DNA of 64,000 nucleotides, taken from Branchiostoma floridae (Eukaryota; Chordata; Leptocardii; Amphioxiformes; Branchiostomatidae). The stretch covers positions 8,720,377 through 8,784,376 of the forward strand of contig NC_049981.1 of NCBI RefSeq assembly GCF_000003815.2. Reading direction: 5' to 3'. Below, piece after piece: positions 7,005 to 64,000 of this stretch. A program made the position numbers and the translations under genes. Every line of letters starts with the position of its first letter. Position 1 is the first letter of the stretch. The notes beneath the pieces are model-generated. The model was given only the letters and a program-made list of their open reading frames with translations, did not search any database and was not told the origin of the DNA.

Positions 7005-7208
7005 TTAGGCCATGTTGATTTGATTATATGGATGACATCCTCCGGGAACTCCAAAACTGATGCGAGCGAGCGAATAAAAAAAAAGTTTGGCCAAAAAAAA
7101 AAGTTGCCTTCAGTATGAAATCAAAGTGTCCAGGAAGGTTGAACATAGGACTAAACACACATAGTATGGTATACCAACAGTTAGCTGTAGGGACCAGTAC
7201 ATCATACG
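7005..7208 (+). mobile_element. Left end of small inverted-repeat DNA element (TTAGGCCA family)
   Basis: Begins TTAGGCCATG and then carries the terminal motif TATGGATGACATCC. The first 204 bases match 63156-63359 with only two mismatches that I can find. The rest of the copy lies in or beyond the assembly gap. No transposase frame is visible, so it is a non-autonomous element. Confidence 0.75.
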
Positions 7209-7443
7209 NNNNNNNNNNNNNNNNNNNNNNNNNNNNNNNNNNNNNNNNNNNNNNNNNNNNNNNNNNNNNNNNNNNNNNNNNNNNNNNNNNNNNNNNNNNN
7301 NNNNNNNNNNNNNNNNNNNNNNNNNNNNNNNNNNNNNNNNNNNNNNNNNNNNNNNNNNNNNNNNNNNNNNNNNNNNNNNNNNNNNNNNNNNNNNNNNNNN
7401 NNNNNNNNNNNNNNNNNNNNNNNNNNNNNNNNNNNNNNNNNNN
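7209..7443. other. Assembly gap (run of N)
   Basis: 235 undetermined bases. The gap interrupts a repeat that has a near-identical copy elsewhere, which probably explains the failed assembly. Confidence 0.99.
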
Positions 7444-7690
7444 CCTTATTACCGTACCGTAAGATACAATATTGTTCGGTGCAAACATGACATTGAAATG
7501 AAAAAGTGGCCTTACCTGGTGTAAAAATCGGTCACTATGTTGTGACATGCGTTTTCACATACCTAAACAATGTAACCAAAATTGCACATCGTTTTGAAAA
7601 AGTCAAAGTGTATTGTTGTAACAAACATTACCGGTAACGTTTGTTACACCTGCCTGTAAACATGAGCAAAATGTCGCTAGTAGAAAATAC

Positions 7691-12300: not shown

Positions 12301-12699
12301 ATTTTCATTAATTATGCAAATGTGATACCATTTTGCATGATTATTATTTTATTTTGTACAACATTGTCTGCGGTACCCAGGTACCCAAAATGATGAATTC
12401 TGATATTCCTATCTTGAATTATCCTCTTTGGCAGTTTTTTTAGATAGCCTGCAATCCCAACCCAACCCGCTAGGAGGCCCAAACTCACATCGCTTCTTTC
12501 TGAGCGCAACAGCCATCTAACACCATAAAATGGTGTCTGGTGATCATAGCTTGTTCAGAACCCGCGATATCAAAACCGGAAGTTCCGTTGCAGTACCAAG
12601 AGAAGCCGCTAGGGGGCCCAAAATCTAAAGTTTTCGTTACATCCCACCAACACACCCAGTATAAAACCAATCCATCCAGCCGTCCTTGTTGACACACAC

Positions 12700-12735
<36 letters not shown>

Positions 12736-15700
12736 AGACACACACAGAGACAGACACACAAACGCTAGTAAAGATGAGAATATGAGAGCTTTATTTGTTC
12801 TTAGCAAAAAAAGAAATTTCAAACCTACCAAGAGAAGCCGCTAGGGGGCCCAAAATCTAAAGTTTTCGTTACATCCCACCAACACACCCAGTATAAAACC
12901 AATCCATCCAGCCGTCCTTGTTGACACACACACACTGATGTCTGATAACAAAACAAACAAACATTCGCTGTTCTCGAAACAATATTATAAAAATGTGAAA
13001 ATATAATCGCCATGAATATTTCATAGCGGTAGATCTAACCATAAATAGTACCCCATAGGTGGTCTTTAAATGTTCAGACTTGATTTCGTATTCAACATTT
13101 TGTAAATGTACATGTTATACTCTGAGCTGCTGTAAAAATCAATGCGTGTAAAAAGTCGATATCAAAGAATACAAAGTACAAAGTTGATAAGACACCAGAA
13201 ATTGACAACCACATTACTCCGTCAAAAATAAGAGTTGACGGTTCTGTGATCTATGGAGCGCGTGTCGACATGTACACCATTATCACGGTAAAACAGATTG
13301 CGCATGAAAGAACGTGGAACTAGCAGAATAATTTGAAGCCATTTTCTGTAAGTGTGTGGACTTGAATTATTCTTTAGAAACAGAGTATTTAATGGGCTAT
13401 CTCGGTAACACATTTATAAGATACGTATACAAATACACACATGGCAAGAATTTCTCTTATGCAAAATGTTGCTGTGGCACATGTTAATATTCCCCTGGGC
13501 TCCAAAAGGACCCATACGGCCGGATTTATAGGGTTAAAGCTATTTGTGCGTCTGAACATTCTAAATTTGTATTCTACTTTAGACATGAATACTTCAGCCA
13601 CACACAAAGCAAAGTTGATTCATTGTAAGGCACGCTTTAGAACAAGGCTTATCTCTCCAAACCACATTGCTTCTTCGTGTCAACTCTGGGAGCCAGACGC
13701 CGACTTTTGTGGGAAATGCGGCACCAAACAGGCTGTGCTATCTAAATCGTGTTGCAGACATACACCAGTGTAGATATTTTATGAGTAATGTCATAAATTC
13801 ACCTTTATCTTACCACTTACAGCTTACTGAATACCAGTGATTCCGGTTCCGTTGGTATGGCAGGGATAGCTTCCTGACCAATCCCAAACATGTTGTAACA
13901 TTCGCAACCATCCATGTAAATTGGCCGTACATCGCATACCAGCTTGTGTTAGCATCTAGCACTTTTACGTACATTTTATTTCTGAAGCCACTTTGGAACC
14001 ATTTAAGTCATTACGTCATAAAACAGGACAATAGTGGCCAAACGTCCTGTAATAAAGAACTAGACCTCCACGAATCCGTACCATCGCCAAATTATTTTAA
14101 CCATTAAGAATGATGTATAATAACGATTTCTCATTGATCATGAAAATAAGGTCAATATACATACATTATATCAGGCAATAATCTCATAATCATCATCATC
14201 ATCATCATTTGTAATCCTCATGGTGATGTGGAACAAGTGAAGTTTGATTTCCAGTATACAGTCTGTCATTCATCGCTGCGAGGAGTTCCGGACCGTCCAG
14301 TACAGTTTTTTAGTTCAATAATTAGTAAGCTTCTTCAAAGTTCGCTTTGTGCGATAAACACGTTTCTTAGAGAAAACAGGTGTCCAGAGCAAGAGTTTTC
14401 CGGCTGGCTCTCTACTACGAGCCACATGGGCGGCTAGGAGTAGTCGGCGTTGCTTAACAACAGATGTAACATTTGGTAACGATCCATATAGCTGACTATT
14501 TGTAATGTGTTTCATCCATGGTGTATCATACACTACCCTTAACATCCTTGTATAAGTACCATAAAGGTTTTTTGAACGTGACGTATTCATTAACGATGAT
14601 TCTAAACCATACAACAGAATTGCTTCAATACATGCTTTAAACACATTTGTCTTTAAGTTAGTTTGTTTTCTAATGGGTGCTTTCCAAATTTACGTAGAGA
14701 GTGAAGGGCACTCCATGCCTGAGCGATCCTTACATCCATGTCATGTACACTATCGGAGTAACCGCATAGGTAATGATGCCATCTACCTAAACGACACACG
14801 TTGGTCAAAGTTCTATTCTGGCAAAGAAAGTTATTTTAGTATTTTTCCATTGCTTATGAAAATAAGACCCTGACTTGCATAGATTATGTTTGACGAAGTT
14901 AGTCAATTGACTTTCATATGTCACATGTGTTGGTTGAGTTAACATCATGAACCGTTATGGAATGGTAGCATTTTTTTAAATATTACCTCAATATTGAAGT
15001 TCCTATCTATAAAGGAATTACCTACCTCCTCAGCCCAGATGACCAACAGACGGTGTTTTCTAATGCAGGTCTACTTCACATGATATAGTACAATACAACA
15101 GAACTGTACTTTTTCCTTCTCCGTTATGTGAATGAGGCCCTGATTTAAAATCACAGCACTACAGTTAAAAAAGCTGCTAGAGGCCTCAAAGTTACACCGC
15201 TAGCTCTCAGCCCCAAGAACTAATTACAATCACCTCTAAAAATCAGGGTCATAGCACTTCCAGAACATGACCTCTTAATCCTGGAAGTCCAGCTGCAGTA
15301 CCATAGCGAGCCGCTGGGAAGTCCATCATCTCCCCAACAGCAAAAGACGACCCGAATATCATGCAGATCAGAGCTCCTCGATTCACAAGTTGACGTTCCA
15401 CGGTAGTACTGTAGGAAGCCCATTGTCAAACTTTCATTGTCATTCCACAGCAGCTCCCCTCATTATGCCACTTACATACAAACCAAGGCATGCTCCAATG
15501 TAGTGCTGCTAGAAGTCACTTGGAAGATCATTATCAAACTTGAACGCTCCAAAACTCTCTCTAGCATATTCAACTTCTCGAGTTGTGCTGTTTGCATAAA
15601 AACACGCATACATCCTCCATAGTAAAACTGAAAAGAAAACATAACTTTCTAGCGAAGGTAAAGTCTTGACGTAGAACTACTGCCTTTACCAGCTAGTGGT

Positions 15701-18700
15701 CAGGGATATCAATGACTTATGGTTTGATATTTATTGTGTTCTTTCTGAGGACACGTCTTAAGTTTTACATTGAAACTTGTTAATTGTTATTTGTTTTCAC
15801 CTTGGATACGGTTATGAAATATGATCACAATCTTGTTTGAGATTGTCAGAGTAGGATATTTGAGCTACAGCTCACCCGCCGTGCATCATTCCCGTCTCCC
15901 CACGTGTTCTCTCCCGTAATCACAAAGTTATTACAAATCAGATGTATTTAGTAATGCTTAAGGACTTAATCACATTGTCCGGCGTGATTACAGAACAACC
16001 CTTACATTACTGATGCCTGCACTCAACTTCAAATTGCTAGTTCACCGCACGCAGCTGATGTAGTTAATGATCAGAATAAATATAACAGCTGGACGGAAAA
16101 GTGTCTGTCTGAGTCTAGGCCATTTAATTGACCCTTCCCACATAGTACTCAGGGCATGATGACCTTCTGGTCACAGAGAATGCATCATCATCATCATCAT
16201 CATCCGCCGGGATGGGGGATGCCAGTCTCTGGGAGGAACAGAGTGCAGAAGTTTTATTCTGAACATCCTGCAGACTTATTCTCTCCTGGACTGAATGGTG
16301 GGTAGTCAGAGTTGAATAAGGGCTTCTGAGTAGTGAGTTGCTCAGGATGATACGGCATGCACGACGTTGGTATGTCCAGAAATGGGGTAAATGTACGAAT
16401 TTAGTGTGTACGAAGTTGTACGAACTTGTACGAAGTTAAAGGTAGATATAGACCGTAATCGGTAAACTTCGGAAGTTTTAGGTGACGTCATCTAACTTCG
16501 TACAGGTAGGCAGGGTTGGTGTACGATGTACGATGTACGAAGATAACAAATCTAACTTCGTACAGGTAGGCAGGGTTGGTGTACGATGTACGATGTACGG
16601 AGTTAACAAATCTAACTTCGTACAGGCAGGCAGGGTTGGTGTACGATGTACGATACAGGTAGGCAGGGTTGGTGTACGATGTACGATGTACGGAGTTAAC
16701 AAATCTAACTTCGTACAGGCAGGCAGGGTTGGTGTACGATGTACGATACAGGTAGGCAGGGTTGGTGTACGATGTACGATGTACGGAGTTAACAAATCTA
16801 ACTTCGTACAGGTAGGCAGGGTTGGTGTACGATGTACGATGTACGAACTTAACAAATCTAACTTCGTACAGGTAGGCAGGGTTGGTGTACGATGTACGAT
16901 GTACGAACTTAACAAATCTAACTTCGTACAGGTAGGCAGGGTTGATGTACGATGTACGATGTTTAAAAATCTAACTTCGTACAGAGGAGCAGAGTTAGTG
17001 TACGATGTACGATGTACAAAGTTAACAGATCTTCAGTACAGATGGTCAGCCTTAACGTTGTACGAATCGTTAGAGTCGAATTAAAAAATGAGAGGTCTTA
17101 TTAAAACACCATATTGAACGATGACAAAATTACAAACTTTTCTAAATAAGACCTATATCTATGTTCATCAAGTGCATTGAAGAATGGGGATCACGTCAGA
17201 AATACAAAGTTGACAGCTCTAAGACCGTACAGAAGGCACTTGAATAAGTTTTAGATAATAAAAAGTAACAAAATTTAGAATGATGAAAATATTTTCGAGT
17301 TCCCATAAATGTTATCGTTCTCACTAAGGCATAATGGTATACAACAGTCACAAAAATGCTACCTAATGTTAGTCAAAACAAAATAATCTTGACTAAAACT
17401 CATTTCATATAAGTCATTCTATAGGAACCTCTTACTTTTATGAGATAGTTGATTCTAACGTTATCTGGCCTAACACCACTGTTTGTTACCAATAAGGGTG
17501 TCAGGCAGGAGTGTAAACTAAGCCCTAGACTTTTTAATATTTTTATAAACGATCTAGTTCACAAGTTAGATGATACAGATTGTTCTCCACCCGCACTCAA
17601 TAATTGGTGATCGATGATGAGAGCATGTGATTAACGCGTGGCTGACCATGTGCGACAGGTGAAAGTAGAATAGAATACTGCGTACGGAGTTAGCATAACC
17701 CACAGCATAGTCAAAACATCTTGACTTCGTACACCAGGCCCGACCCATATACGAAGATAGCATAACTCACAACAAAGTCAAAACATCTTAACTTCGTACA
17801 TCGTACTTCGTACATTAGGCCCGCCCCATGTACGAACTTAGCATAACCCACAAAATAGAAAACATTTTAACTTGGTACATCGTACTTCGTACATTAGGTC
17901 CGCCCCATGTACGAACTTAGCATAACCCACAAAATAGAAAACATTTTAACTTCGTACATCGTACTTCGTACATTAGGTCCGCCCCATGTACGAACTTAGC
18001 ATAACCCACAAAATAGAAAACATTTTAACTTCGTACATCGTATTTCGTACATTAGGTCCGCCCCATGTACGAACTTAGCGTAGCTACGTCACAGATAAAT
18101 GTCGACGTTTCCCGAACTTTGCCGACAGCGGTTGTCGGAAGTTGTCGGAAGCTAGAAGTTGTCGGAAATTACGTGTGACGTAGGCTGATCCAAACTTCGT
18201 ACATTTCACCTATTTCTGGACATGTATGGGTCTCTCGACGAGATGCCTGTTTTTAGTGAGTCGGGATTCCAAACTGGGACAGCATACTCACAGACATTGG
18301 GGCGCCTTTGTACATGGTGACTGGATCAAGTTTGGGAACTCTGAGCATCTTCAACCGTCGTAGGATGAAAAGGCGTTTTCTGTTTTGTTTAACCATGTGG
18401 GTAACAAGTCAAGTCAAGTCAAGTTTATTGCACGATTGTATCAGGTACAATGTATGGCAAGTAACATGTATTACTAGCAACTACGAACTATCTACATGGG
18501 TATACTAATCTAACATAATAGAAAATAAGGCGGCATAGTGCATTTTACATTGTTAAAGCACGACTTCTCTTTTGCATAGCATTATATATATATATTGGCC
18601 TAGATGGACAGATATGGAGTCGGGACATGATAGAAGTACATTGAATATTTCTCTACTTGTATTGGGTAGTGTTGTTCTGTTGTTACACATAGTCAATAAC

Positions 18701-41200: not shown

Positions 41201-42125
41201 GAAAAAAAACAAGATGGCTACATTTTCAAAAATAGGCACCATAACTGAGTTGTGATGAATGTTGGAACAAGAATTAAAAGGACAAAACATGGTATCAGAG
41301 CCAGCAAGGCATTCATTCCTGTACGTATTCAAGACATGTACTGGTGTGGTAAAAGTGACACTAGTGTGGTAGACTGGCATCACCAACAAAGTTGGTAACC
41401 ACACTCATGGCTTCCATATTGGTGTCACTTTTACAACTATACAATAAGTTTCATTTCTACAACTACAGCCCTGGGTACCTCGCAAGTGTCACTTCTACAA
41501 GTACAATTATTAGGCTACCATACAACATATTTGCTCATTTTGGTACTTTATCGTCATGTTGACCATCCCTGGAGAAGAAAAAAATTCTTGTTTTTTTTTC
41601 TGAAATCAGGCGAAAATTAATGCGCGCGCTGATGTCATCCATAGAATTTACTTGCTGTGACCTAAGCTATTAAGCTGCAAATACCTGCCGGTCCAAGTTT
41701 TCTTGGGCCCACTGAAAAGAAGGGTCATAACAAATTTCGATTTCAATCAAATAATAAGTGATATAAGTTGTAGGTTATTTTCTATCAGTTCCTCAAATTT
41801 GTTACAATGCAAAACCTGATATAAACAGACGCACCTAACCTAGGTTCCCTTTGTGTTGACACCCTGCATAAGTCAGTAAGAAAGGGTTTACATAGTTTCA
41901 GATATTTGGTTGTCACCTCCAATGAGCGAGAAATTTCATTCACAGCAAGACTTTCTTGTTCGTTTTGCTGACTAAATGCAACGAGCACTAGCACTCTAAG
42001 ATCATTACAATGGCGCCCCCTGTCGTTTATCCCGCAGGTTGCAGCAACTGTACTATGAGATGGCCCACGTGCTGGTGCAGTACGCAGACGACAGGCTGGC
42101 TGAAGATCCCGAGAATATGTCTTAG
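34286..42125 (+). CDS. CATSPER3: CatSper3, sperm-specific calcium channel pore subunit, eight exons
   Basis: One of four pore-forming subunits of the CatSper channel in the sperm flagellar membrane, which admits calcium to control motility. Exons: 34286-34378, 34930-35097, 36020-36223, 37252-37437, 39258-39410, 39882-39977, 40802-40959, 42038-42125. All seven junctions agree in phase and give 381 residues, close to the human protein. Order: acidic N-terminus; S1 about 39-56; S2 68-87; S3 100-117; S4 with R134, R137, R140, R143, R146 and R152; S5 168-190; pore helix and TVDGW filter at 217-221; S6 233-257; coiled coil 258-300. The CatSper3 subtype is shown by the C-terminal SLDHQENTLYRLQQLYYEMA, which matches the human CATSPER3 tail as I recall it, against the other CatSpers. 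No defect seen. Confidence 0.95.
34930..35097 (+). CDS. CATSPER3: CATSPER3 exon 2 (S1-S2)
   Basis: Acceptor ATTGTCCAG, donor AAG|GTACGA, 56 codons. Contains FIMFVIFLNAVFMALET (S1) and NIFLSIYSVEMVLK (S2), with the S2 acidic residue that serves as a counter-charge in voltage sensors. Confidence 0.95.
35190..35400 (+). repeat. (CA)n-rich microsatellite in CATSPER3 intron 2
   Basis: CA run with CAGA and TACA interruptions and a (CAGA)n patch at 35354-35376. A second CA tract lies at 35645-35762. Confidence 0.9.
35645..35765 (+). repeat. (CA)n-rich microsatellite, second tract
   Basis: Interrupted CA run followed at 35790-35860 by the 'CTAACAAATATCACCAAGATCCATCCACA' end (fragment) of the interspersed repeat family seen at 44790-45145, where the order of repeat and CA run is reversed. 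Confidence 0.8.
36020..36223 (+). CDS. CATSPER3: CATSPER3 exon 3 (S3-S4)
   Basis: Acceptor TTCACACAG, donor CAA|GTGAGA, 68 codons. S3 YNLFDFAIVMISYVQ and S4 with arginines spaced every third residue (ILRVLRAMRSLRTLRTI), the hallmark of a voltage sensor. Confidence 0.96.
36624..36660 (+). repeat. (TTTG)n microsatellite
   Basis: CTGT repeats passing into about six TTTG repeats in CATSPER3 intron 3. Confidence 0.9.
37020..37096 (-). repeat. tRNA-like SINE head
   Basis: On the minus strand, GGGGTGTGGCGCAACGGCTA provides an A-box-like D arm and GGTCCTGAGTTCTAAACTC a decayed B-box. The intervening anticodon arm does not fold well, and the B-box departs from GGTTCGANTCC, so this is a tRNA-derived SINE fragment, not a working tRNA gene. 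Confidence 0.5.
37252..37437 (+). CDS. CATSPER3: CATSPER3 exon 4 (S5 and pore helix)
   Basis: Acceptor ATATTCCAG, donor ACT|GTGAGT, 62 codons. S5 is very leucine-rich (NIVLLLLLLMFLFGIMGYYFFG); the pore helix ends ...LFTYVT, supplying the first residue of the selectivity filter. The splice site falls inside the filter. Confidence 0.95.
38570..39080 (+). mobile_element. Non-LTR retrotransposon 3' remnant in CATSPER3 intron 4
   Basis: The plus strand reads GDETHFISKCSFNQTERITQ and later a NPQILEKVGILVSLCFRKR segment, the end of the retroelement zinc-knuckle region with one stop inside. The sequence ends TTGCAATTAGCCCTCGGAC then AAATAAATTTC, the same terminus as the remnant at 19600-20080. Confidence 0.7.
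39258..39410 (+). CDS. CATSPER3: CATSPER3 exon 5 (filter and S6)
   Basis: Acceptor GGTGTAG, donor CAG|GTAGGA, 51 codons. Starts VDGWTDLQ, completing the T-x-D-x-W filter in which the Asp sets calcium selectivity, then S6 AIYSIIFIFLGHFIF and VFIAVIIMNIHE. Confidence 0.96.
39882..39977 (+). CDS. CATSPER3: CATSPER3 exon 6 (coiled coil)
   Basis: Acceptor CGTCTGCAG, donor CAG|GTGCCC, 32 codons of charged helix with heptad-like spacing (EEIQKLMEKQ), the region after S6 thought to help CatSper subunit assembly. Confidence 0.9.
40120..40430. repeat. Interspersed repeat, GCTAGGGGG-type family, both orientations
   Basis: 40130-40270 reads in reverse (ATGATATTTGGTAGGTGGGA, CCTAGCGACTTGC) while 40325-40470 reads forward (CGACCCCTACCCACACACCA, TCTCGAG, GCAGTACCGTAGGAATCCGC). 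Two oppositely oriented partial copies. Confidence 0.5.
40474..40615. mobile_element. 142 bp foldback element in CATSPER3 intron 6
   Basis: Arms of about 65 bases beginning CCAAGCAGAAG and ending CTCTGCTTGG pair along most of their length with an eight-base loop (CCACCAAC). It interrupts a copy of the interspersed repeat family. Mismatches between the arms suggest moderate age. Confidence 0.8.
40802..40959 (+). CDS. CATSPER3: CATSPER3 exon 7 (C-terminal domain)
   Basis: Acceptor CTCCGCCAG, donor CAG|GTGAGT, 52 codons plus two bases. Reads FTEMAAQFERTLRHEDYI and LTSLDHQENTLY, aligning with the human CATSPER3 C-terminus. Confidence 0.93.
41115..41665. mobile_element. Inverted-repeat DNA element, TTAGGCCA family
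   Basis: 551 bp with terminal inverted repeats of about 36 bases: left TAAGGCCACAGCAAGTAAAT then TATGGATGACATC; right, reversed, TTAGGTCACAGCAAGTAAAT then TATGGATGACATC. Best-bounded member of the family in the window. No transposase frame; lies wholly in CATSPER3 intron 7. Confidence 0.85.
42038..42125 (+). CDS. CATSPER3: CATSPER3 exon 8 (terminal)
   Basis: Acceptor TATCCCGCAG. One base completes the split Arg codon, then 28 codons (LQQLYYEMAHVLVQ...) and TAG at 42123-42125. Confidence 0.93.
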
Positions 42126-42152: not shown

Positions 42153-42158
42153 AATAAA
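42153..42158 (+). promoter_or_regulatory. Poly(A) signal of CATSPER3
   Basis: AATAAA 28 bases after the stop codon, in the same orientation. It would give a very short 3' untranslated region. Confidence 0.75.
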
Positions 42159-42897: not shown

Positions 42898-42903
42898 TTT
42901 ATT
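42898..42903 (-). promoter_or_regulatory. Poly(A) signal of the 101-residue gene
   Basis: AATAAA on the minus strand, about 160 bases beyond the TAA of the terminal exon at 43064. Confidence 0.65.
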
Positions 42904-43063
42904 TGGTACATCAGTGCAGTACAAAGACATTGCAAAATGCCCATCTAGGTTCTTGCGTATTTTTATACCATGGATTTCACGATAGTAAAGGTGATAACTT
43001 ATGGCGGAGTTCTAGTTTGGTACCACCAGCCATACTAGTATCTGAGCATCTTCAACCCATGGT

Positions 43064-43149
43064 TTAGTCCAGATTGTACACGTTCTTTACAGCTCGAATG
43101 TTGATGTTTTTCCGCTCCCTCTCTCTCTCCCTCTCACGATCCAAGATGG
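43064..43149 (-). CDS. 101-residue gene, exon 3 (terminal)
   Basis: Acceptor CATTTTGTAG. Two bases complete a split Ser codon, then 27 codons and TAA. The run RERERERER is encoded by a purine GAGAGG/GAGAGA tract, seen on the plus strand as CTCTCTCTCC. Confidence 0.68.
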
Positions 43150-45109
43150 CTACAAAATGGAGAAATTAACAGATAAACTTTCCAGAGGACAACAATTTAA
43201 ACTACAGTTACCACATGTTAAACTGGACATACGCAAGAAGTTCGCCATCCGTGCGAGTTATTCAAGCATTGAATAAACTACTTCAACAGAAGGTGAACCA
43301 CACTACAATAAATGGCTTTAAGATCGGCATTGGCATTTTCATTGACGAGAAGACCACGAATTTATCAGAAGCTAAACAGTGTTGAGTTTTTATTTTACAC
43401 CCAAGTACAGCAGATCAGGACGCTTCACGTTGGGATATAGCTTTAGGGTACAGACCTCCAAAGGCTGGCAGGCACCTGTTGCATGCATAAGATGAAGGGA
43501 AAAGGCTGTCAAAAGTCACCTACCTAAGGTTTAGTTGGTGAAAATCTCACATTGGTAGGCAAATCTGACTTCTAAAGAGTGCATATGGCGATTTTGAAAA
43601 CATTCGGTTCAGCGCAATGCGCCCCCACAAACAGAATAAGAAACTCTGGTGACCTTTGACCTCCCTGATAACACCCAAACTATATATACTCTAGACTGTC
43701 TAAAACACTCCAAACATGGTAGAAAGCTTATTTTTCTCACGAAATAAAATAGCCAGAATACCTGAACATAATTTCCAGCTCCAAAATGCCAACATTTCCC
43801 AACAAAAAGGCTTCTTACACTTACGTTTGCAAGCCATCTTCTGCGCATGTCTGTAATGGTGACCTTTCACCTTTACGGGAACACGCCATTCTGATTGCAA
43901 ATCTATTACTTTCTGCCAGGAGGCGCAACTACACACGTGGAAGGTCGGACCGCTTTTTGCTAGTCTACTCTACCCTACCCCATAAAAATTCCCAGAAAAC
44001 TTTTTAAAAAAATATCTCACCGAACTCGAAGGCGGGAACTCCCTCCAAGGTAAGACGATGGTTAGCTTTGACTGTTCTGGGTGGGCTGGAAGAGAGAACG
44101 TCTGTTTCTTTAACATGAATATGTACAAACTGGACGCAGCCTGCGTGATAGGTCGTTGACCCCGAAATACGCAGCGTGCGAGGATATTTGCGCGGCGCCT
44201 CTAGGAGGGAGCAGTAGTAAACTTATACTTGCTTTTCTGAATAGCTTTAGACAAATTGGAGGTGGCAATGGTCAGAGTGAGTTGAAGATTAAATGCTGAC
44301 TAAGAATTCTTCCCGAGCCAAGTTGTTATGTGGTACTCTTTCGAGTGAAATATTTATATTTTTTCTCATTTCATTATGCAAATAAGGTCATGATTTGCAT
44401 AAATTGTCTAGGTGGATCATCCTCTCTATGTAAGAGGTACAGGTCCAAAGTATGAACGTGTAGAGAAGGTCATTTTAGTGTTTCCTGATTAATTATGTAA
44501 ACATTAAACTGATTTGCATGATTTATACCTCATAATGTTCACCTTCATTAAGCTTCATTATGTTGTAAGTATGAAATTCCTATCATTTACCACTATGGAA
44601 TTATCATACTTTCTCAATGATTATGCAAATGAGGTCGTCATTCGCATAATCATTGACACTTCTCTCTTTCTCAGTTACATCATGCGATAAGCTTAAAGTC
44701 CTGTTATGGATTTATTAAGTTTCCTCATTAATCATACAAATTAGCCATTGACTTGCATAATTAGTATATCATTATGTAAGTCATCATGTAAGCTATCTAT
44801 ATACCAAAAATCATAACGATCTGTCAACACGTTCTCCAGTTATTCTTGTTCAAAGTTTAAAGGAAATCGACGCCTGCAGTTCCAAAAAAGCCACTTGGGA
44901 ACCCAAACTTACAGCACTTACTCTCTGCCCCAATGGCTATCTACCGCTCAAAAGCTAAGACCACAGCATGTCCAGAACAAGAGTAATAGGGGGCATATTA
45001 TCGAACTTGACCTTCGTTTTCGTAACCCCTACCCAAATACCAAATACCATCCAAGGCTTCTCGACTTATGCTGTTAACACACACACACACACAGACACAC
45101 GCACACACA

Positions 45110-45149
<40 letters not shown>

Positions 45150-48100
45150 TCTGTGCACATTATTATGTCATACTTAACACATGCATGAGGGTAAAAAGTT
45201 AATACTAACATACAACCGTCGTCTGGGCTTATCGTCTCAGACATGGAGATCCCGCTGTCCTTGTCTACCAGCTTCTCGCACGACTTGACCTCCACCAGCG
45301 TGTCTGAGGGGCTCTTCGTCAGCGTCTTGCCGTTATTGTCCAGATTCAGGACTGTGCGTTTACGGATCAGCCTGCTGCAGGAGGGGCGGAATCATCTCAT
45401 ACAATAGAAGTAGAGCCATGTTGTGTAGATTATATTGGTTATTTGGGTGGGCCAACTACTCACTATATGCAGCCAGGGGCTGAATTGCGAGGAGCTTACA
45501 ATAGGCAGGGCTAAATCGCAAGGGTCTGGAACGAGCTGCCATTCGGCGCCACTCAGGTGACCTCAATACGACTGTCGCAAGTGTCTGGAGCGAGCTGCCA
45601 TTTGGCGTCACTCAGGTGACCTCAATATGACAGTAATTGCCCCAGGTGCGGCCAAGGTACTGTAGGTTTTGAACCACTCACACCGCACTATCGCACTTGT
45701 GGCGGGTTCTTTAACGTGTCCGACAGGGGTATGGCTCTCCCCAGACACGGGACCTCCATTTAACGTCCTATCCGAGGGACTGCCCTAGCCGAAGCTAGGT
45801 ACTACTCATTTTCACCTGAGTAAAGTGAGGAAAGTAGTGTTAAGTGCTTTTCCCAAGGGCACAAAATCGGTAACACGGCAGCCGGATTCGAACCCGCAAC
45901 CTCTCGGTCACGGGCTGAACACGGGCTGAGCTACGCGGCCCCACTACTGATGCATCAGCGCGCGCATCAATTTTCCCTCATTTCAAAAAGTTTTCAACCA
46001 CACTGTAAATCGCTACAAAATGAGCAAATGTATAAGGAAAAGTTTAAAAAAAAGAAAACGGATACATATGTCGTAGAATGCCAATTCAAAACAGGTATAT
46101 TCCAAGTCAACCAAGCGTTCAGAGACCTCATACCTCCGTGAAATGGGTGATGGTGGTGTGGTTTAGTTGTTTACTATAAATGTATTTATGTTCGCGGGGA
46201 TTTAATTTCGCGGTAGCGGGAAAAGGGACTTTTCGCGGTGGATTTAAGTTCACGGTAAAGTGGTCACCGCGAAAACCGCGAACATTAATCCACCGCGAAC
46301 ATTTTTGCATTTACAATAGTACGAGGGGAAATTGATAAGTTCTCGGCCTCGCTCAGAAATGATAAGCACAACTCAAATTTCGGGGAACACCTTCGTAGTA
46401 TGAAGTTTTTTTATCAATATCCTCCACATTAAACATCATTGCAGTCATTACTTTACAGGCAACGTCTTTTTGAAAATCAGACGGTAAGTGGCGAGAAAAA
46501 CAATTGTGAACTGTGATCAGCCATGTGTGGGTCGAGTTCCCCATGCCGTAAATTCTTCGAAGACATTGTCAAAATGTTTCATAATAATTCCCTTCGTATT
46601 TCAAGTAGACCGAAGTGGGTGACTGACTTCCAGTAGAGCATGTTGACCCTCACCCCTCAGGTCGCAGCTCAATTGTCCATGTTTTTTTCCTTCTCTCTTA
46701 TCTACCGTTACTGGGTGCAGCCTGCAAAGTAATGATCACAATACTGTAAATGCAGAAATGTTCGCGGTGGATTAATGTTCGCGGTTTTCGCGGCGGCCGC
46801 TTCACCGCGAATTTAAAACCAGTAAGAGAATACAGTGCATGGTGCTACCGGGAAATTAAAACCACCGCGAAAAGGCCATTTTCCCGCTGCCGCGACATTA
46901 AATCCCCGTGAACTTAAATGCATTTACAGTAACTTGAATTTTGGTACACATTTATAAAAGACTTTATACTTGACAGCTATGCTTCGAAAGAGAACTTATT
47001 GATCACCCCTCGTATACTCGTATATCCGATTGGCACAATTTCCCAATTCTATTATGTAAATTAGCTCCTGAATTGCATAACAAGCTTGCAATTATGTGAA
47101 TATCTACATAAGGTATCTGCATACCTACAGTCATCACGATCCCGCATCTTGTCTTCACGCCCACGGAAAACCGCTAGGGGGCCAAAACTTACACACCTTA
47201 TCATCGTTGAACGCAGCTACCTACCACTGAAAAATCATGACTAGAGCCAGTCCAAAACAAAAAATATCAAAACCGGAAGTTCCGCTACAGTAACGTTACA
47301 CCGCTAGAGCGTCAAACCAAACCACATTCCTACCATTTCATTGATATATGTCCTGCTGATATATCTGCCTATGTCGGTCAATTTATATATAACTCATTTA
47401 AAAAACGTGACAATATTATACTATCATGAACCAGCACATAATGATAGCCTGATTGTAAATATTATATACCATGTGTAAAATAGATTAATCTCTTAGATTT
47501 TTAGATACTAGTAACTCATGTAGTGTTCTGTTCTGTATGTATTGTATGTACAAGTTGCCAAACACTGTATCCTTTACAGTTGTCGTGCAATAAAGTTCTT
47601 TTTCTTCTTCTTCTATCAAGACCTACCCACAAACTAAATATCAAAATAATCCAATATCCGTTCTCTAGTTATCTTGACGACAAACGTCCCTCTTACATAC
47701 AGACACTAGTGAAAACAAACCTCCCGTTTCACGGAGGGAAAAAGAACAATCTACATGTTCCGTACTCTGTATGTTTGATCTACAGTAGTCATTTGTTCAA
47801 CCTTTGATCACTTAGTTATCTTGATGAAGACATTTCTTTAAAATTTTGTTTACTCCCACGCTCGCATGAGTTTTGGAGTTCCTAGAGGATGTTATCCATA
47901 TAATCGATGTACGTGCGTTCTAGAATGGCGGAAACATCGTCAGTCACTGAATTAAGAACAATGAGATGACATATATTGGGACGTCATACACGGTTTGAAA
48001 AGGGTCCATCTATATACTATTAGTCAAATGTACAAAGATCAGTAATCACAGATAAAGTTGTACGTGCTTTTCAATGACTATCCTGAATCGCAGTCATGTT

Positions 48101-48574
48101 TTCGTTCCCTAAACTTTTGTCGAGCCAATGATTTCAGTCCAGGAGTCACCTTTTCTGCTATTTCATGATGCCATACCGACATTCACAGCTTGTTCGATTT
48201 TTTCCAAACAAGCGTCGACACAGCGCCACATAGCAGTTACTCATTGACAAACAGCTGGATATGATTTTGAAAACGGCCAGACGTTTCGCGTAGCATCCAC
48301 TACCAGTATCTTTTGTCAGTGACACTGAGCAACATCTGTTGAAGAGCAGGTTTCTCATCAAAAACTATGAATTGATATGTAAATGAGGTGGAGACCAATT
48401 TTCGATAGTCCAATAATAAACAAAAGAAGAAAAACTGGTTTTGTACAGGTACGATGTGCAGGTACCCACTCTTAATCGTTAGTGACTACTTCGAAACAAG
48501 AACCGTGCTTACCTTGGGTCTCCGCTTTGGAATTTCTCCTGAGAGCAGGCGTCTCCGACATTGACCTCAGACAT
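43064..48574 (-). CDS. Unrecognised three-exon gene, 101-residue protein
   Basis: Exons in order: 48574-48513, 45371-45214, 43149-43064. Donors are AAG|GTAAGC and GTT|GTATGT; acceptors are CAG and TTTTGTAG; both junctions agree in phase (2, then 1), and a minus-strand AATAAA follows the stop. The predicted protein starts MSEVNVGDACSQEKF. Its middle is acidic and polar with LIRKRTVLNLDNNGK and DSGISMSETISPDDG, and it ends with an Arg-Glu run and NIRAVKNVYNLD. No signal peptide, membrane segment or named domain is visible, and I do not recognise the family; function unknown. Consistent splicing over 5.5 kb and protein-like composition argue that it is real. It ends tail-to-tail with CATSPER3. 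Confidence 0.7.
44790..45070 (+). repeat. Interspersed repeat, GCTAGGGGG-type family
   Basis: Good copy: ACACGTTCTCCAGTTATTC, GCCACTTGGGAACCCAAAC, ACAGCACTTACTCTCTGCCC, ATCTACCGCTCAAAA, then GACCTTCGTTTTCGTAACCC, ACCCAAATACCAAATACCAT and TCTCGACTTATGCTGTTAAC, running straight into a CA microsatellite. Confidence 0.65.
45079..45146 (+). repeat. (CA)n microsatellite
   Basis: CA run with CAGA and CACGCA interruptions starting directly after the TGCTGTTAAC end of the interspersed repeat. Confidence 0.92.
45214..45371 (-). CDS. 101-residue gene, exon 2
   Basis: 52 complete codons. The acceptor is a tandem GCAGCAG (NAGNAG): using the first AG would add one Ser (GDPSRLIRK instead of GDPRLIRK) without breaking the frame. 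Donor GTT|GTATGT. The exon contains LVEVKSCEKLVDKD and a Ser-rich DSGISMSET stretch. Confidence 0.72.
45515..45634. repeat. 60 bp tandem duplication
   Basis: TCGCAAGGGTCTGGAACGAG at 45515 recurs as TCGCAAGTGTCTGGAGCGAG at 45575, both followed by CTGCCATT.GGCG..ACTCAGGTGACCTCAATA. It sits at the 3' side of the SINE-like repeat. Confidence 0.8.
45640..45942 (-). mobile_element. tRNA-derived SINE
   Basis: On the minus strand the head GGGGCCGCGTAGCTCAGCCC carries a D-arm with A-box, and GGTTGCGGGTTCGAATCCGG an intact B-box GGTTCGAATCC. A duplicated TTCAGCCCGTG lies between them where an anticodon arm should be. The body continues for over 200 bases (CTTGGGAAAAGCACTTAACA and so on). Polymerase III promoter elements look intact, but it is not a tRNA gene. 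Confidence 0.7.
46172..46321. mobile_element. Palindromic MITE (TACTGTAAATG family), 150 bp
   Basis: Ends TACTATAAATG and CATTTACAATAGTA. The inner arms carry TTCGCGG and CCGCGAA words that pair. The right terminal TA is shared with the next element. Confidence 0.8.
46320..47014. mobile_element. Mariner-like MITE, host of a nested insertion
   Basis: Terminal repeats CGAGGGGAAATTGATAAGTTC at the left and, reversed, CGAGGGGTGATCAATAAGTTC at the right, flanked by TA on both sides as in Tc1/mariner elements. Without the inserted 46742-46931 element it is about 505 bp. Terminal sequences resemble mariner ends, but no transposase frame remains. Confidence 0.8.
46742..46931. mobile_element. Palindromic MITE (TACTGTAAATG family), 190 bp, nested
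   Basis: Ends TACTGTAAATGCA and TGCATTTACAGTA with long GC-rich arms (TTCGCGGTGGATTAATGTTC). It splits the mariner-like MITE at a TA that is intact in the copy at 8119-8120. Confidence 0.9.
47040..47310 (+). repeat. Interspersed repeat, GCTAGGGGG-type family
   Basis: Contains CTATTATGTAAATTAGCTCC, AACCGCTAGGGGGCCAAAAC, TACCTACCACTGAAAAATCA, AAAACCGGAAGTTCCGC and CAGTAACG. The 3' portion appears at 47620-47745 after an inserted retroelement end. Confidence 0.6.
47345..47616 (+). mobile_element. Non-LTR retrotransposon 3' end with (TTC)n tail
   Basis: Ends in GTGCAATAAAGTTC followed by TTTTTCTTCTTCTTC. The upstream 250 bases are AT-rich and non-coding, as in the 3' untranslated region of such elements. 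It separates two parts of an interspersed repeat copy, suggesting insertion into it. Confidence 0.6.
48513..48574 (-). CDS. 101-residue gene, exon 1
   Basis: ATG at 48574-48572 preceded by GTAGCC, 20 codons plus two bases, donor AAG|GTAAGC. Encodes MSEVNVGDACSQEKFQSGDP. A TATATAA sequence lies about 25-30 bases upstream on this strand, which is too close to be a conventional TATA box unless the untranslated leader is almost absent. Confidence 0.68.
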
Positions 48575-49269
48575 GGCTACCACGCTCGCTAGTTATTATA
48601 TAAAGTACGGGGTGGATAAGAATTGTGAAATATAGAAGAAGCGAGCGCCCCTTCGTTGCGTTGTAGAATTACTGTAAACATGTTATGACTGTCACTCACA
48701 ATTTATTCTAAAACTTGATGATTCTGCTTTGTTTTGTCATTTGCCATCACTATGACGTCATATGTTCTTTCATTTAAAATAAAGAACCTGGCTCATATCA
48801 ACATATACATTAAGATATACATACATGTAACACATAACAATATATCAGCAAAATAAAAACGGCGATCTAGAAAGTTTATGTTGCGCTTCCAGAATGTGCA
48901 GTGATAGCAAACATCTCATTAGACTAGCTAGGGGCGGGAGGGGCTTGATGACGGCATTGTCAGAACAAAGAAGGCAGGTATATTAATATTCAAGTTTACC
49001 ATCAAAATTGTCGATCCTGTTATTGGTAAAAATGTGACTGGTACTAGAGCGCTAACTTAAATTCATATGACGAAACCTTTTATCCAATTCAGTTTAAAGC
49101 CCTATATTCAACTACCGTGTTTGCAGTAGAAGAATGTGACTGAATGTGAATGCAGCTGCAGAAACCAAAGAATGAAAATAATAAATCTACCAGAAGTTTC
49201 AGAAATTTGCGTTTGAGATACATGATTTGATGATTAGAATGTTATACATCGAGCAATATAATATAACTG

Positions 49270-54300: not shown

Positions 54301-57300
54301 TTTTGATCTATACAGAAGAGAATGACGCCTGACTGGGGGTATAATCATTTTTACTATTATTCACAAATAAAATTGAAAAATAAATTTTTCTCCACAGGAC
54401 AAACAATTACATACAAAAATTATGTACAGTCACTGTGGTATTTCTTTGTTTGTTTACGGTTGTGGTTGGGTGAGTATTTGCTACCACACCATCTGACAGC
54501 AGTCCAGGAATGATCCCCAACCATTGTTGGTATAAGACATGCCAAACCACATACGAAAGCAGGGAACGGAACATAGGGTCTCATTCCTGTATTACTTCGA
54601 GTGTAGAGTCTAGACGAATCCGGGCGAAAAAATTATCTGGCCCGCAAAGCGTTGTTTTAGGTGGACCATCAATTCCCATTAATAAACCATAACTGATATG
54701 AAAAGGAATTTAGATGAAAGCTTGTGTATTACTGGCATGATCATGCACGAAAGTTTCGTGACCCGATCGATCCTCAGACGTTTACATTTATTTGTACTGA
54801 GTGCTCCGGTCAGGCTCCGGGTATTGAAGACGACCTCTAGCGGATAGCGGCTAGGTGCATTTTGAAATGTGATAGAAATTGTTGCGTCAGCTAGATTTGG
54901 GTGACAATTTTTTTATTGTCTAACAAACGTGTGTGCTTACAATAGAAAGCAAAACATCTCCAAATATCCAAGTATCAAGTATCTTGTATGACTGCGGAGA
55001 TATTGTAATCTTGCATATATTTCTGACCCGGAGAAATATATGGCGTAATTTTCAGGCTTTTGATGGCCATAACTCTCCAACGGTATGTCCGATTTTTTCG
55101 CAATAAAAAACATTCTATTTCTTTCACTAACTATCCAATGATATCAAGTTTGAAAAGCTGTGAAGAGTTTGACATTTTTGTACAATTTGAGACAGATACT
55201 CTGACCTTGAAATTTAGCCAACAAATAGCAACATTTGATGGCCAAGTATGTTATATTATAAAAATAGAAGTACATATCTACTAACATTGATGGTTATTTT
55301 TCGGAAAGAAATCTTGCTCAGACATACCTTCTGGCTACCTTAAGTTAGACCAAGTCTGACTGTAGAAACTTAGAATGACTTACATCAACTCTTCTCTACT
55401 TTGCTCTTGTTATTTTGTATGCCCCAAATAAAACATGTGAAAGCCTGCTGGCATGCATAATCTGTTTATTTTCTAATTGGTCAAACATCTGGTCCAAATA
55501 TGACTTCTTTAAAACAAACAAATTAATGTACTCTTAGGTATCCATGTTACCTGTGGATAGTGTTCCGCCTCACATGCTGCACACCTGCGTTTACTGCCAG
55601 CCAGGTTCTTGGTGTTGTTTCCTCCACACTGTGAACAGAACTGGTGGGAAGCATGCCATGACAGGAGAGAGTGAGCCTGTGGAAAACAGTACTAATGGTA
55701 TAATGTCTGTGGCAATCAGATACAGGTCTAGTATAGGCAGGGCTTGAAATATTTTTCATCTACATGTTCATGTAAGTGCAAGCAGATATCAGTAATACCT
55801 GCACAAACACAAAGCATTTTTCCTCAACAAAATTGACTGTAAACAAAGTCAATGACTGCTACTTATGTGTCCATGAGGTAAGTGTCAGACTGACCCATGC
55901 AGATCCTAGTCCCAGTCTTGTAAACTTTTTCTTAGAGTCCAATCACTTTTTTCAAACCTAGCTTCACTTAGTGCCCTCCCTCAGATAGGAAGTTAAATGG
56001 AGGTTCTGTGTTTGAGACCCTGGCACCTTAAGCATGTTAAAGAAGCAACAATTACAACAAGTAGCATTTCCTAGTCTAAGACTGCCAGTTAGAAATGTTT
56101 CTACTAGTACTAGACTAATTGCTTTCTATCTCTACTTGAGACTGGAAGGACTCCACTTAACTTAAGACCACTTACTGCACATTTAGAATCTATTACCTGT
56201 GACATGAGTTGTCCCTCCGTAGGTGACACCACAAACAATGCTTTACGCACGTTGAAAACAGAAGCACCAAAAGTCTCCTCTACTTGTGTCTGAAGGTCCA
56301 ACGGCACATCTTTTGTTCCAGCTATATTCTTGCTAGAAATGTTGAAGGCAAACCTTGCTGTATGCTGTTCAGTACACCCATTCAGTAAGATACATTGTGG
56401 AAGGATTGCTTCTGGATCAACTCTGTGATGAGAGAAAGGCAGAAATGATGTGAGTGAGTGAGTGATGAGTGCACTTGTACGTGTGTAGTGATGAGTGCAC
56501 TTGTACGTGTGTACTCTTGTTTTGTGAGTGAGTGAGTGTGTGTGAGGCAGCTACAGGACATTTTAAAGACAGATGCTGAACACTGAATGATGATGAATTT
56601 TCTAGGGCCCTCCCCTCTGTTCAAATATTTTTGCAATGGCCTAATCCCCCCCACACACGCCAAAAAGAATTTTTGATGGGCCTCCCCAAAGTCTTTTCCA
56701 TTTCTCTGTCTCCCTTTGATAATCTTGATATAAGATAGATTTGATTGCGATCGTGATGTTTGAACAGGACAGCAACCGTCATAAGTTGAGGTGGATTTTG
56801 GACAGGTACTCCAGGCTGAGCTGGTAGGATAGAAGTTCAGTTATTCAAATCTTTCTGTTTCTTTTATGAATGATTGAACATAATGTAGAAGTTAAGTGTT
56901 AATTGAGCCAGATAGGAATCCAGGCCCTCGAATCATCGGATAAGGCATTATCAGAAAGATCATCCATGTTTATGGCAAATCCTAACATCTTCTATGTAAA
57001 TTGCTGAGGAAGTTGCTACTAACAGTATTAAGTGTAGTTGGGACAGTACAAAAGATAATGATAAATGCTTTCACAAGGATGGCCACATGTGCAAGCCATA
57101 CTAGTAACAAGATTGACCCAAGAACTGGCCTTGACCAGGAAATGGCAACACACATGTATAAGACGCTTGTGCATCCGCATGTGGAAATTGAAGAAGATTC
57201 ATTCTTTACTTCTGGATAATTATCAAATTTTGATAGACGTTTTGAACGGTGTCCACCGTTCTTCATCGGTGTCACCGTTCTTCATCGGTGGACACCGTTC

Positions 57301-60300
57301 TTCATCGGTGGACACCGTTCTTCATCGGTGGACACGGTTCTTCATCGGTGGACACCGTTCTTCATCGGTGGACACCGTTCTTCATCGGTGGACACGGTTC
57401 TTCATAGGTGGACACGGTTCTTCATCGGTGGACACGGTTCTTCATCGGTGGACACCGTTCTTCATCGGTGGACACGGTTCTTCATCGGTGTCACCGTTCT
57501 TCATCGGTGTCCACCGTTCTTCATCGGTGGACACCGTTCTTCATCGGTGGACACCGTTCTTCATCGGTGGACACCGTTCTTCATCGGTGGACACCGTTCT
57601 TCATCGGTGGACACCGTTCTTCATCGGTGGACACCGTTCTTCATCGGTGTCACCGTTCTTCATCGTTCTTCACCGTTCTTCATCGGTGTCCACCGTTCTT
57701 CATCGGTGTCCACCGTTCTTCATCGGTGTCCACCGTTCTTCATCGGTGTCCACCGTTCTTCATCGGTGTCCACTGTTCTTCATCGGTGGACACCGTTCTT
57801 CATCGGTGGACACCGTTCTTCATCGGTGTCACCGTTCTTCATCGGTGGACACGGTTCTTCATCGGTGGACACCGTTTTTCATTGGTGGACACCGTTTGAA
57901 ACGTCTATTAAAATTTGATAATTATCCAGAAGTAAAGAGTGAATCTTCTTCAATTTTAATGTATCCTGGATGACTAATCTTCACAAACGTATCCACATGT
58001 TGAGTACAGAGTAGCACTGATGATAAATGCGACACACACTGCAGTAAAGCAGCTAGAAGGAGAACAGAAACAAGCTCTATTGAAAACAACCGGGTGCCTG
58101 ACACACACTGCAACTGAAGCACTGGAAGTACTAACGAACATGACTCCCGTGGATATCTACTAATATTAATAAGAGAAGTCCAGGCTATGGAGTATGCCAG
58201 ACTCCTAATGAAATGGAAGAACTCTCTGATAGGTCACATGTTAAATAGGTGGCAAGTTAGACAACAGGAAAGAACACCAACAACACTGACATTATTACAC
58301 AATTGTTATAGACACAGCATGGGGAAAAGGTTACTAGTAGTGGAACCAGTTGAAGAGTTGTATCAGTACAAGAGTGATACAGTCACTTAAACTCACTTTT
58401 AAACCAGTGCAAATTTATAGAATCTTCAACATGCAGGAGGCACTTAGCAAAAAAGGAAGGAGCAGTCAAAATCCAGAAAATGCTTAGAGAGGTGTCACAT
58501 GAGGATGTCATATGCTTCACAGATGATCAGTAATCCATCCCGACTGGCAGTGGTGCTGCGATTTACCTGAAAGGTTTAGAAAGTACACCTGTGTGCCTAA
58601 AGAAAACAGTGTCAAGGTAATGCAACAATTACATTGGCAAACTACATAGGTTGTTGCTGGCGGCTCTACTTCTAAAGAACAGCAATACACATGGGAAAAA
58701 CATCTTCATAGTCATACTGTGTGATTGCAAAGCTGCAATAGAATCAGTGACACATGCAGGACCGCCCAGAAGTTATAGCGACATCACCATGAAGACCAGA
58801 AAATCATTGTCTGAGACAACAGAAATCAAAACAAGCTACAGATAAACGTGGACCCCGGGGCACATGGGAATGGCAGGTAACGAAATTGCAGACGGACTGG
58901 CGAAGGAAGCAGCAAAGGAATGTATAAAAGAAAGAGCACATCATGATTGCACCCATGACAAAACAAGACATTAAGAGAGAAAGAGAGACAAACTCCACTC
59001 AGAGATGACAGCACAGATATAACTTGTCAACACAAAGTTTCACAACTCATAGCGCTTAGCCGCTATCAAAAAAGTGGGAGAAAGAAGAATAGTAAACATG
59101 ACGGACAGAAGAGGAAAACATACTGCTAAACCATGTGCTCAGCGGGTATACTAAGCTGAACAATATGGAGAAGATAACCAACCCTGAGTGTGAGTCTGAA
59201 TTGTGTAATCACTGCTTGTCACCGGAAACTGTAGAACATTATTTATGGGAATGTGAACTGTACACAGAACAAAGAGAGGAATTACAAAGAGACACCTACC
59301 TCTGTCTGAGAGAAGAGGAAATGCTGTATATGAACACAGAGAATCTAGGAATTTACGCAGAAACAGAGGAGATAAGCAAGGAAGGAGCAGAAAAACTCCA
59401 AAAAGCCATGGTCAATTTTTCCGGAGTACAGGAAGATTTGAATAATTATAAGAAGAGAATGAGAACTATGACAAAAGTGATAGGAGAAAGGAAGTAGAAT
59501 TGAAACCGCCTACATTGTGCAGAAGCCGACCAATTGGAAACAGCAGCGAGTGTGAAACACATGTACACGTGTGTTTGGAAGCACAAAGAGAGATGGAAGA
59601 GAAGGAAAGCACATGTGAACAACTACCGACGTATTGAAGCGGTTAGAGAGACAACAACAACAACATGGCCATTAACAATTTTGTAGGAGGAAATAAGAGT
59701 CTGAACGTGGCGGCATTCGGATAATTTTTCCCATCCCAGTTCAGTATGTAGATTATGAGGAACCCCTGATGGCACCAGCTACAGTTATAGAATATTCGTA
59801 TTGTAAACATTCAATGAGATTTAAGTCTGAAGTAGTGCAACCGTACCATACTACACTGACATATAAGCCTTCTCACGTTAGACAGGAATTCTAGGTAATA
59901 TTAAATATGTCAAAGGGTAAGGCACACAGAACATTAAACCACCGCGAAAGTTTCTGCATTTACAGTATGTACAATAGAATACGCGCATATTATTATAAAC
60001 CCGCACATAAACACATACCATGATAAGCCCTTTCACAGAGGTCAGAACGCATGTGTGGCGACAGGGATTCTAGATAATATGTCAAAGTTGGGCCCCAAGG
60101 CTGTGAATGGGGTTTGGGCCCATAATGGATTTTTTAAAACCTAAAACTGGGTAACCGATATTTCCAGTGCATGCAATGTGCATTGGACAGAAGGCAACAG
60201 TTTGCTCATATTCATGGAGCATTGGGGTTGGTTTATGAATGAAACAGCAATGAACAATCAATGAACATCCACAGGAACTCCCAGGTTTAGTACATTTTCT

Positions 60301-61771: not shown

Positions 61772-62011
61772 ATGGAGGAAGAACTTCCGTCAGGAACAGA
61801 CAACATAGTGACAGAATATAACACGTACGAGGACTTCTTAGATTCCCAGATCACGTCCCTGGATCTTTATTACCTGGAGGATGAGGAGCTAGCGAGGCAG
61901 TTGGTGGAACTAGGCTACCGCGGCAGCGGGGAGGTCCTGAAGCGAGAGGAGTTCGAGGCTAGGAAACAAGCAGCCGAAGCCAGCAGACTGTCCAAACGAA
62001 GCCAGCAAAAG
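61772..62011 (+). CDS. CFAP299: CFAP299 exon 1
   Basis: 80 codons, phase 0, donor AAG|GTAACA. Covers the N-terminal conserved block and a charged helix ending [10 protein letters not shown]. Confidence 0.95.
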
Positions 62012-62778
62012 GTAACACTGACGAGATTTTGATTGTCCTTCTTTTATTTACAAGTTAATACGATTTTCTTTGAACGGTTCCCCGTCAAGTGAGACGTTTC
62101 CCCGTCATGTTGGACGGTTCCCCGTCATGGTTGTGTCACTCCATGTTGTGTTGAATTTTGTAAACTATAAAGCGTTTGCTAGTTTGTGTAATATCCGTGT
62201 TCTGTAGTAATTTTCTTTCAATTTTGACGAATTTTGCTATATTTCTTGTCTTGGGGGGGGGGGTTGCATTGCTAAATTACAGTATCTAAAACAGTACCGT
62301 TTTTCCATGTCTTCAGGCCTTGGCTAGCTCTGGAAAGGACTTGAAGAACCCATTTCTTAAGTGTCTGGCTCAGAGAGAAGAAGCGAATCGCAGTGGCAAG
62401 ATGACAACTATCATATTCATCCGTGACTTCAACACTCGTGGTCAGGAGATCTCTGGCTACATTGACTATGCCCACCGGTTGAAGACCGAGGACTTTGAAC
62501 CGTATTTCTCCGGGAAGAAAAGGCTTCTGCCTCGGCCCTCTGATCTCAGCTTCTACAACTGGGAGACTCAGACATCCACCTCCAACCCCACCCCAAACTA
62601 CCAGGTCATTGCAGAAAGTGCATCTGGCCTGCTGTTCAAAAACAAACGAGATCGCAAGATTTTGAATGTGGATCCCAAGGCAGCCTCTCCAGGGGACAAC
62701 TCCACTCGAACCGTGGTTGACAGTCCGCAGTACACGCAAGTGGTCATCTACGACCACATCACTCGCAGAAAGACTTAG
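61772..62778 (+). CDS. CFAP299: CFAP299, cilia- and flagella-associated protein 299, two exons
   Basis: Conserved cytosolic/axoneme-associated protein (human C4orf22) implicated in sperm flagella and cilia; no enzymatic domain is known. Exons 61772-62011 and 62317-62778 join in phase 0 to give 233 residues, full length for the family. It matches the human protein nearly throughout: [81 protein letters not shown], and ends [12 protein letters not shown]. The start at 61772 (AAGATGG) was chosen over the upstream in-frame ATG at 61682 because homology begins near [11 protein letters not shown]. Divergent from NUDT13. Confidence 0.96.
62040..62130 (+). repeat. Short tandem repeat, TTCCCCGTCA word
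   Basis: GACGTTTCCCCGTCATGTTG and related words occur three times with a spacing of about 25 bases in CFAP299 intron 1. Confidence 0.6.
62317..62778 (+). CDS. CFAP299: CFAP299 exon 2 (terminal)
   Basis: Acceptor ATGTCTTCAG, 153 codons and TAG. Holds [20 protein letters not shown] through the C-terminal [12 protein letters not shown]. Confidence 0.96.
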
Positions 62779-63155: not shown

Positions 63156-64000
63156 TTAGGCCATGTTGATTTGATTATATGGATGACATCCTCCGGGAAC
63201 TCCAAAACTGATGCGAGCGAGCGAATAAAAAAAAAGTTTGGCCAAAAAAAAAAGTTGCCTTCAGTATGAAATCAAAGTGGCCAGGAAGGTTGAACATAGG
63301 ACTAAACACACATAGTATGGTATACCAACAGTTAGGTGTAGGGACCAGTACATCATACGGGTGCAAAACATTTTTTTCTTCTTGGACCAATCCGAAAAAA
63401 AAACAGACCTCAAAAAAACAACAGAGGAACAGGTTTCGCCAATTACAAAATGGACACACTATGTCGGCAGCCATTTGGGGTCTAACCGGGGGGCCAAGAA
63501 GACAACAAGAGCGAAGTCAAGTAGAGTTTATAGTCAATTGTACCAAGTTTCTACAGTCAAAGGTACAGAGCCTTTATTACATGGAGATGGGATTTTAAAA
63601 TGCAGTCCAATAATCCACCAAACAGATTCCTTTGTAGCAAAATTGACCAATTACCATTGTTTTGAGTATTGCCAGTTCTCAAGTTTCCACAGACAATCAG
63701 GTTCATGTCCGGACCTGGAAATGATCGTCTGGACCTGAATTTTCTGTACTGGTATCTCCCCCAACCAACAATAGATTTTTTTTTTCTTTCTGTCCTTTCA
63801 CATCATATTCTTTGACTTTAGATTCATTTTGGCATTCTATGGCATTAGCTATCTGTTTTCTGATACTTTTTTTTCAATCTACGGAATATTTGTGTTCATT
63901 TTACAGCTGCTTTGCACAATTTATTGTGTGGTCGAAAACTTTTTTTTTTTGTGGAAATGGCCGAAAATTGGTGCGAGCGCGGATGTCATCCATATAATCA
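63156..64000 (+). mobile_element. TTAGGCCA-family inverted-repeat element, runs off the window
   Basis: Left end TTAGGCCATG with TATGGATGACATCCTCC; the last bases of the window, GCGGATGTCATCCATATAAT, are the start of the matching right terminal repeat, so the element is about 860 bp and nearly complete here. It includes sequence missing from the gapped copy at 7005. No transposase frame recognised. Confidence 0.8.

Follow-up and report, generated by a model that had tools for sequence, protein, structure and literature searches.

Background

The closest described systems for the locus reported here are the orphan small genes of animals. The small gene is like them in being a short multi-exon gene with a small product and no Pfam domain; the search for homologues behind this comparison spanned Pfam, PDB sequences and viral contigs. 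A second point of reference is ubiquitin, as a stretch of about 25 residues encoded by exon 2 (GKTLT..SPSDT) resembles its second strand and helix region, whereas the small protein has no terminal GG and leaves the rest of the fold unmatched. The third is the sperm channel family, of which PMC2572835 reports four genes in Branchiostoma floridae. A CATSPER3-like gene lies next to the small gene, and the two products differ when compared by Pfam, with Ion_trans in the channel and nothing in the small protein.

The window is the whole stretch of B. floridae DNA that was analysed (64,000 nucleotides), and all positions given below are counted from its first letter. It spans 8720377-8784376 of contig 3, which places the small gene at about 8,763,440-8,768,950 of that contig. 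Judged by its sequence, the small gene is very probably real and coding. The best explanation overall, and one that we hold to be somewhat better than even, is an ordinary small protein-coding gene of the minus strand with three coding exons.

Proposed structure of the small gene

The gene had been proposed in an earlier sequence-only reading, and its elements are as follows.

48513..48574, minus strand: coding part of exon 1, 62 nt from the ATG, left in phase 2
45214..45371, minus strand: exon 2, 158 nt, entered in phase 2 and left in phase 1
44021..44085, minus strand: candidate additional exon of 65 nt (if begun at 44071 it would be 51 nt long and preserve the frame)
43064..43149, minus strand: coding part of exon 3, 86 nt ending in TAA, entered in phase 1; of the three exons the least certain
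42898..42903, minus strand: poly(A) signal AATAAA, some 160 nt past the stop of the small gene

Translation confirmed the three exons at the proposed coordinates: joined in phases 2 then 1, they give a CDS of 306 nt that encodes 101 residues. The proposed stop and poly(A) signal are also present, as exon 3 ends in TAA and AATAAA is found at 42903 on the minus strand. The frame is open from ATG to stop across the phased exons, with GT-AG introns as in a spliced coding gene, and an in-frame TAA is located 21 nt 5' of the ATG. The G+C content of exon 1 is 53%, compared with 38% in its flanks, and the frame of exon 3 runs partly through a GA run. The transcript would start near 48.6 kb and would then be spliced and translated.

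A small gene finder was applied to the minus strand between 42800 and 49200, with dinucleotide shuffles of the same region as a null model. At an exon penalty of 14 the best chain scored 21.8 bits and was exactly the proposed three exons; the shuffles reached a maximum of 1.5 bits, and none of 300 reached the observed score. With a penalty of 12 the best chain scored 28.9 bits against a shuffle maximum of 9.5, again with 0 of 300 at the observed value. Among the penalties used (9, 10, 12 and 14), only 14 returned the proposed model as the exact best chain. The chain at penalty 12 contains the same exons and two weak mini-exons (48335-48304 and 47173-47125); at penalty 10, exon 2 is additionally shortened to 45269 and 44200-44161 is added, and at penalty 9 one further small exon appears.

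The chain was also compared with 38 overlapping 6.4-kb segments covering both strands, none of which contains all three exons of the small gene; the null models are the shuffles and the segments of this window. The minus-strand segment 44801-51200, which holds exons 1 and 2, scored 21.1 bits and ranked fourth of the 38, its chain ending in an alternative exon (44873-44857) because exon 3 is outside the segment. The higher-ranked segments belong to a GPCR gene (44.2 bits), the channel gene (29.7 bits) and a DUF4464 gene (23.8 bits). The segments of a Nudix gene scored 16.6 and 14.8 bits, partial segments of known genes lower still, and the best segments of the four known genes of the window cover a range of 16.6 to 44.2 bits. 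A segment with exons 2 and 3 and without exon 1 scored 13.6 bits, and exons 1 and 2 supply most of the signal of the chain. The antisense shadow of a GPCR exon (minus strand, 9601-16000) scored 20.0 bits, and such a segment score alone therefore proves nothing. The plus strand opposite the small gene scored -0.4 and -5.1 bits, and the small gene is therefore not itself the shadow of a gene on that strand.

Codon use and splice sites

The joined frame has a codon score of +30.7 bits, of which the synonymous part contributes +28.0 bits over 101 codons. Per codon, the synonymous score is about equal to those of three exons scored for comparison, two from the channel gene and one from the Nudix gene; by this score and by the shuffles, the codon use of the small gene is coding-like above chance. 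Exon 2 is the peak of the sliding codon score over 42900-49000 on the minus strand, with +18.8 bits in total and a synonymous score of +17.6 over 52 codons, the highest of the six frames. By the full codon score, one antisense frame slightly exceeds that of exon 2 itself (20.1 vs 18.8), but it contains a stop. Exon 3 has a synonymous score of +6.2 over 27 codons. Exon 1 is weak on codon score alone, as its synonymous score of +2.8 over 20 codons is close to that of the best other frame (+2.5). In each exon the highest synonymous score among the six frames is that of the joined frame, in exon 1 only narrowly.

To train the codon model, 42 of 60 fetched loci were used. They are matches to TCP-1 chaperonin and DEAD-box sequences in the same genome and supply 3430 codons. 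The other 18 were dropped by eye with no fixed rule, being near-duplicates, matches with stops or long frames that look like mobile elements. Three loci (L016, L023 and L042) were retained despite stops in their matches, with the stops omitted, and retrogenes or frames of mobile elements may be present among the retained loci. As its background the model uses the window itself, genes included.

The splice sites had been described as good. The donor of exon 1 and the acceptor of exon 2 fit this description, the acceptor of exon 3 fits it less well, and the donor of exon 2 does not fit it. Relative to the sites of the same kind on that strand of the window, the exon 1 donor (AAG/gtaagc, 11.1 bits) and the exon 2 acceptor (12.0 bits) both rank within the top 0.1%, of GT and AG sites respectively; the exon 3 acceptor (7.0 bits) is in the top 2.7%, and the weak exon 2 donor (2.7 bits) is in the top 13.6%. 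The splice models start from human frequencies and are based on 24 donors and 26 acceptors that were chosen automatically in 34 loci. Overall, frame, splice sites, shuffle test and comparison with the segments of the window support the proposed gene.

The 3' part of the transcript

There is a lesser but appreciable chance that the gene is real and that its main transcript differs past exon 2, either by including an exon that starts at 44085 or 44071 and ends at 44021, by including a 180-nt form of it (44200-44021), or by ending at 44857. The first form is suggested by the strong acceptor at 44085 (10.8 bits) and by the raised G+C content of 44085-44021 (55%, compared with 39% in the flanks), where the codon score is +3.3 (synonymous +2.9) over 21 codons. 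This frame requires phase 2 at 44085, however, and exon 2 leaves phase 1 instead. The in-frame acceptor at 44071 is weak (1.3 bits), as is the donor (-1.6 bits); the 51-nt form that this acceptor would create is symmetric in phase and would extend the protein to 118 residues. The 180-nt form is also symmetric and would give 160 residues with another exon 2 donor, but its codon score is -3.1 (synonymous -1.1) over 59 codons, the donor that it requires has -9.4 bits, and with the claimed donor the junction creates a stop. In no form of the extra exon or of its 180-nt extension do good splice sites coincide with good codon use, and neither was added to the model.

Exon 3 is the best of 13 terminal exons of phase 1 with an acceptor of at least 3 bits, with a score of 12.6 bits, and the runner-up, 44873-44857, follows at 11.8 bits, less than 1 bit below. 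The weak exon 2 donor would also fit a different continuation, but the 44873 exon contributes only 4 whole codons. The exact three-exon form is probably the main product of the gene.

Homologues and copy number

The sequence-only reading could place the protein in no family, and database searches agree. At an E-value limit of 10, Pfam returned no family for the 100-, 101-, 118- and 160-residue forms, nor for an out-of-frame 94-residue form or for fragments of 21 and 60 residues. PDB sequences at the same limit gave no match to exon 2 alone or to the 160-residue form, and the sole match of the 100-residue form, Borealin, has an E-value of 3.9, which is chance level, and was discarded. In viral contigs, exon 2 gave 41 pattern matches, of which none was confirmed. 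ARAGORN found no tRNA genes and Rfam no family at gathering score. Among titles and abstract openings we found no publication on the small gene.

Searches of the amphioxus genome itself covered 513 Mb in 431 contigs. With the cut-offs used, the regions of exons 1, 2 and 3 each match once, to themselves only, and so the exons are not repeats. The exon 2 peptide likewise has no second copy, a single row with an E-value of 1.83 (32% identity over 37 residues) being taken as chance. The small gene may occur in amphioxus only, or it may evolve too fast for its relatives to be recognised.

The same lack of a homologue across Pfam, PDB sequences and viral contigs would fit a locus that is transcribed without coding, is a gene in decay or is a chain produced by chance, in which exons 1 and 2 look coding-like and no protein is maintained. 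This is improbable, since the joined frame has the top synonymous score in each exon and carries no stop or frameshift, exon 1 has a strong donor and exon 2 a strong acceptor, and 0 of 300 shuffles reached the observed chain. We prefer a three-exon coding gene. It may well be present, as an uncharacterised locus, in annotation built from transcripts. If it is real and was missed by annotation, the amphioxus catalogue would gain a small gene, and it would follow that short split genes can be discovered by reading sequence.

Neighbouring genes

The tail-to-tail arrangement with a channel gene that had been noted from the letters is borne out, as the last exon of the plus-strand chain is at 42038-42125 and is followed by AATAAA at 42153 on the plus strand. 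This convergent neighbour encodes an Ion_trans protein according to Pfam. Joined into one query, its ORF pieces hit Cation channel sperm-associated protein 3 (E-value 2.2e-26; residues 10-197 of 197) and, more weakly, CATSPER1 (1.7e-15), among the best 60 of 132 PDB matches. Four-domain calcium and sodium channels have lower E-values than CATSPER3 among the same best 60 of 132 matches, and the CATSPER3 name is used here because of the one-domain match and the earlier label.

Upstream of the small gene, on the minus strand, is the Nudix gene (PF00293). Its closest PDB sequence is NUDT12, and NUDT13 is presumably nearer. The DUF4464 gene (61850-62778, plus strand; Pfam E-value 1.3e-97) starts approximately 13 kb upstream of the small gene, and we take it to be CFAP299, a ciliary and sperm protein. 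The GPCR gene is also in the window.

A germline role for the small gene is at most hinted at by its position next to the CATSPER3-like gene. Two sperm- or cilium-related genes (CATSPER3-like and DUF4464) are nearby, yet so are the Nudix gene and the GPCR. We consider it very unlikely that the product is an unnamed small sperm or cilia protein that is co-expressed with the CATSPER3-like and DUF4464 genes in a stretch of about 28 kb, conserved among deuterostomes, and both too short and too fast-evolving for family models. By itself the small gene settles no open question, and its value would rise only if expression or conservation linked it to sperm.

Protein product

The product had been called acidic, which overstates its composition: with a pI of 5.56, a net charge of -1.5, and 19 D/E against 18 K/R, it is slightly acidic only. 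With a charge-hydropathy value of 0.400, where the boundary is 0.417, the protein is just within the disordered range, a marginal call, and the window-averaged TOP-IDP is above 0 for 90% of the residues. The 101 residues contain two SP sites, five CK2-type sites and one RKRT; with the patterns tried, no RVxF, PxIxIT or 14-3-3 motif was found. Phosphorylation-type motifs are found in most disordered proteins. Tentatively, the product may be mostly disordered and act as a small regulatory or adaptor protein, in which the middle of the protein, with the SP, CK2-type and RKRT sites, would be phosphorylated and the charged C-terminal segment would bind a partner as a helix. Of the ways in which the protein might work this is the likeliest, but we consider it less likely than not.

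The ubiquitin likeness of exon 2 was spotted by eye before it was tested, and the shuffle counts therefore overstate its significance: aligned locally, exon 2 has a raw BLOSUM62 score of 47 and the whole protein one of 51, each reached by 2 of 3000 shuffles. The exon 2 frame has the highest ubiquitin score among 791 ORF peptides of the window. NEDD8 is not matched by the small protein, as 300 of 2000 shuffles reach its score. That the product is a ubiquitin-like protein is thus hardly credible despite the two alignment scores and the rank of the exon 2 frame, since there is no match to NEDD8 or in the rest of the protein, Pfam at E 10 and the PDB matches at E 10 yield nothing of ubiquitin, and the terminal GG is missing; we take the likeness to be chance.

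Repeats in the introns and the window

Both introns of the small gene contain repeated sequence. In intron 1, the minus-strand stretch 45480-45944 is a high-copy dispersed repeat with at least 45 matches (40 of 4649 candidates were scored), and the copies among the matches listed are mostly 84-95% identical. By eye it has a tRNA-like promoter box and a SINE-like appearance; ARAGORN calls no tRNA there. The query ended at 45480, 109 nt from exon 2, and the repeat may extend further. The same intron has nested inverted repeats at 46171-46932, with arms of 87 and 80 nt that are 87-89% complementary and a foldback or MITE-type look. Five copies of a 30-nt direct repeat of the ATTATGCAAAT type are found at 44373-44760 and 47051-47080; intron 2 holds four of them and intron 1 the fifth.

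Elsewhere in the window, 57250-57970 is a tandem minisatellite-like stretch with repeats such as HRSSSVDTVLHRW, several frames of which stay open. The same dispersed sequence, recognised by common ORF peptides, lies near both ends of the window (7024-7554 and 63175-63598), and its copy at 7024-7554 contains unread residues (X).
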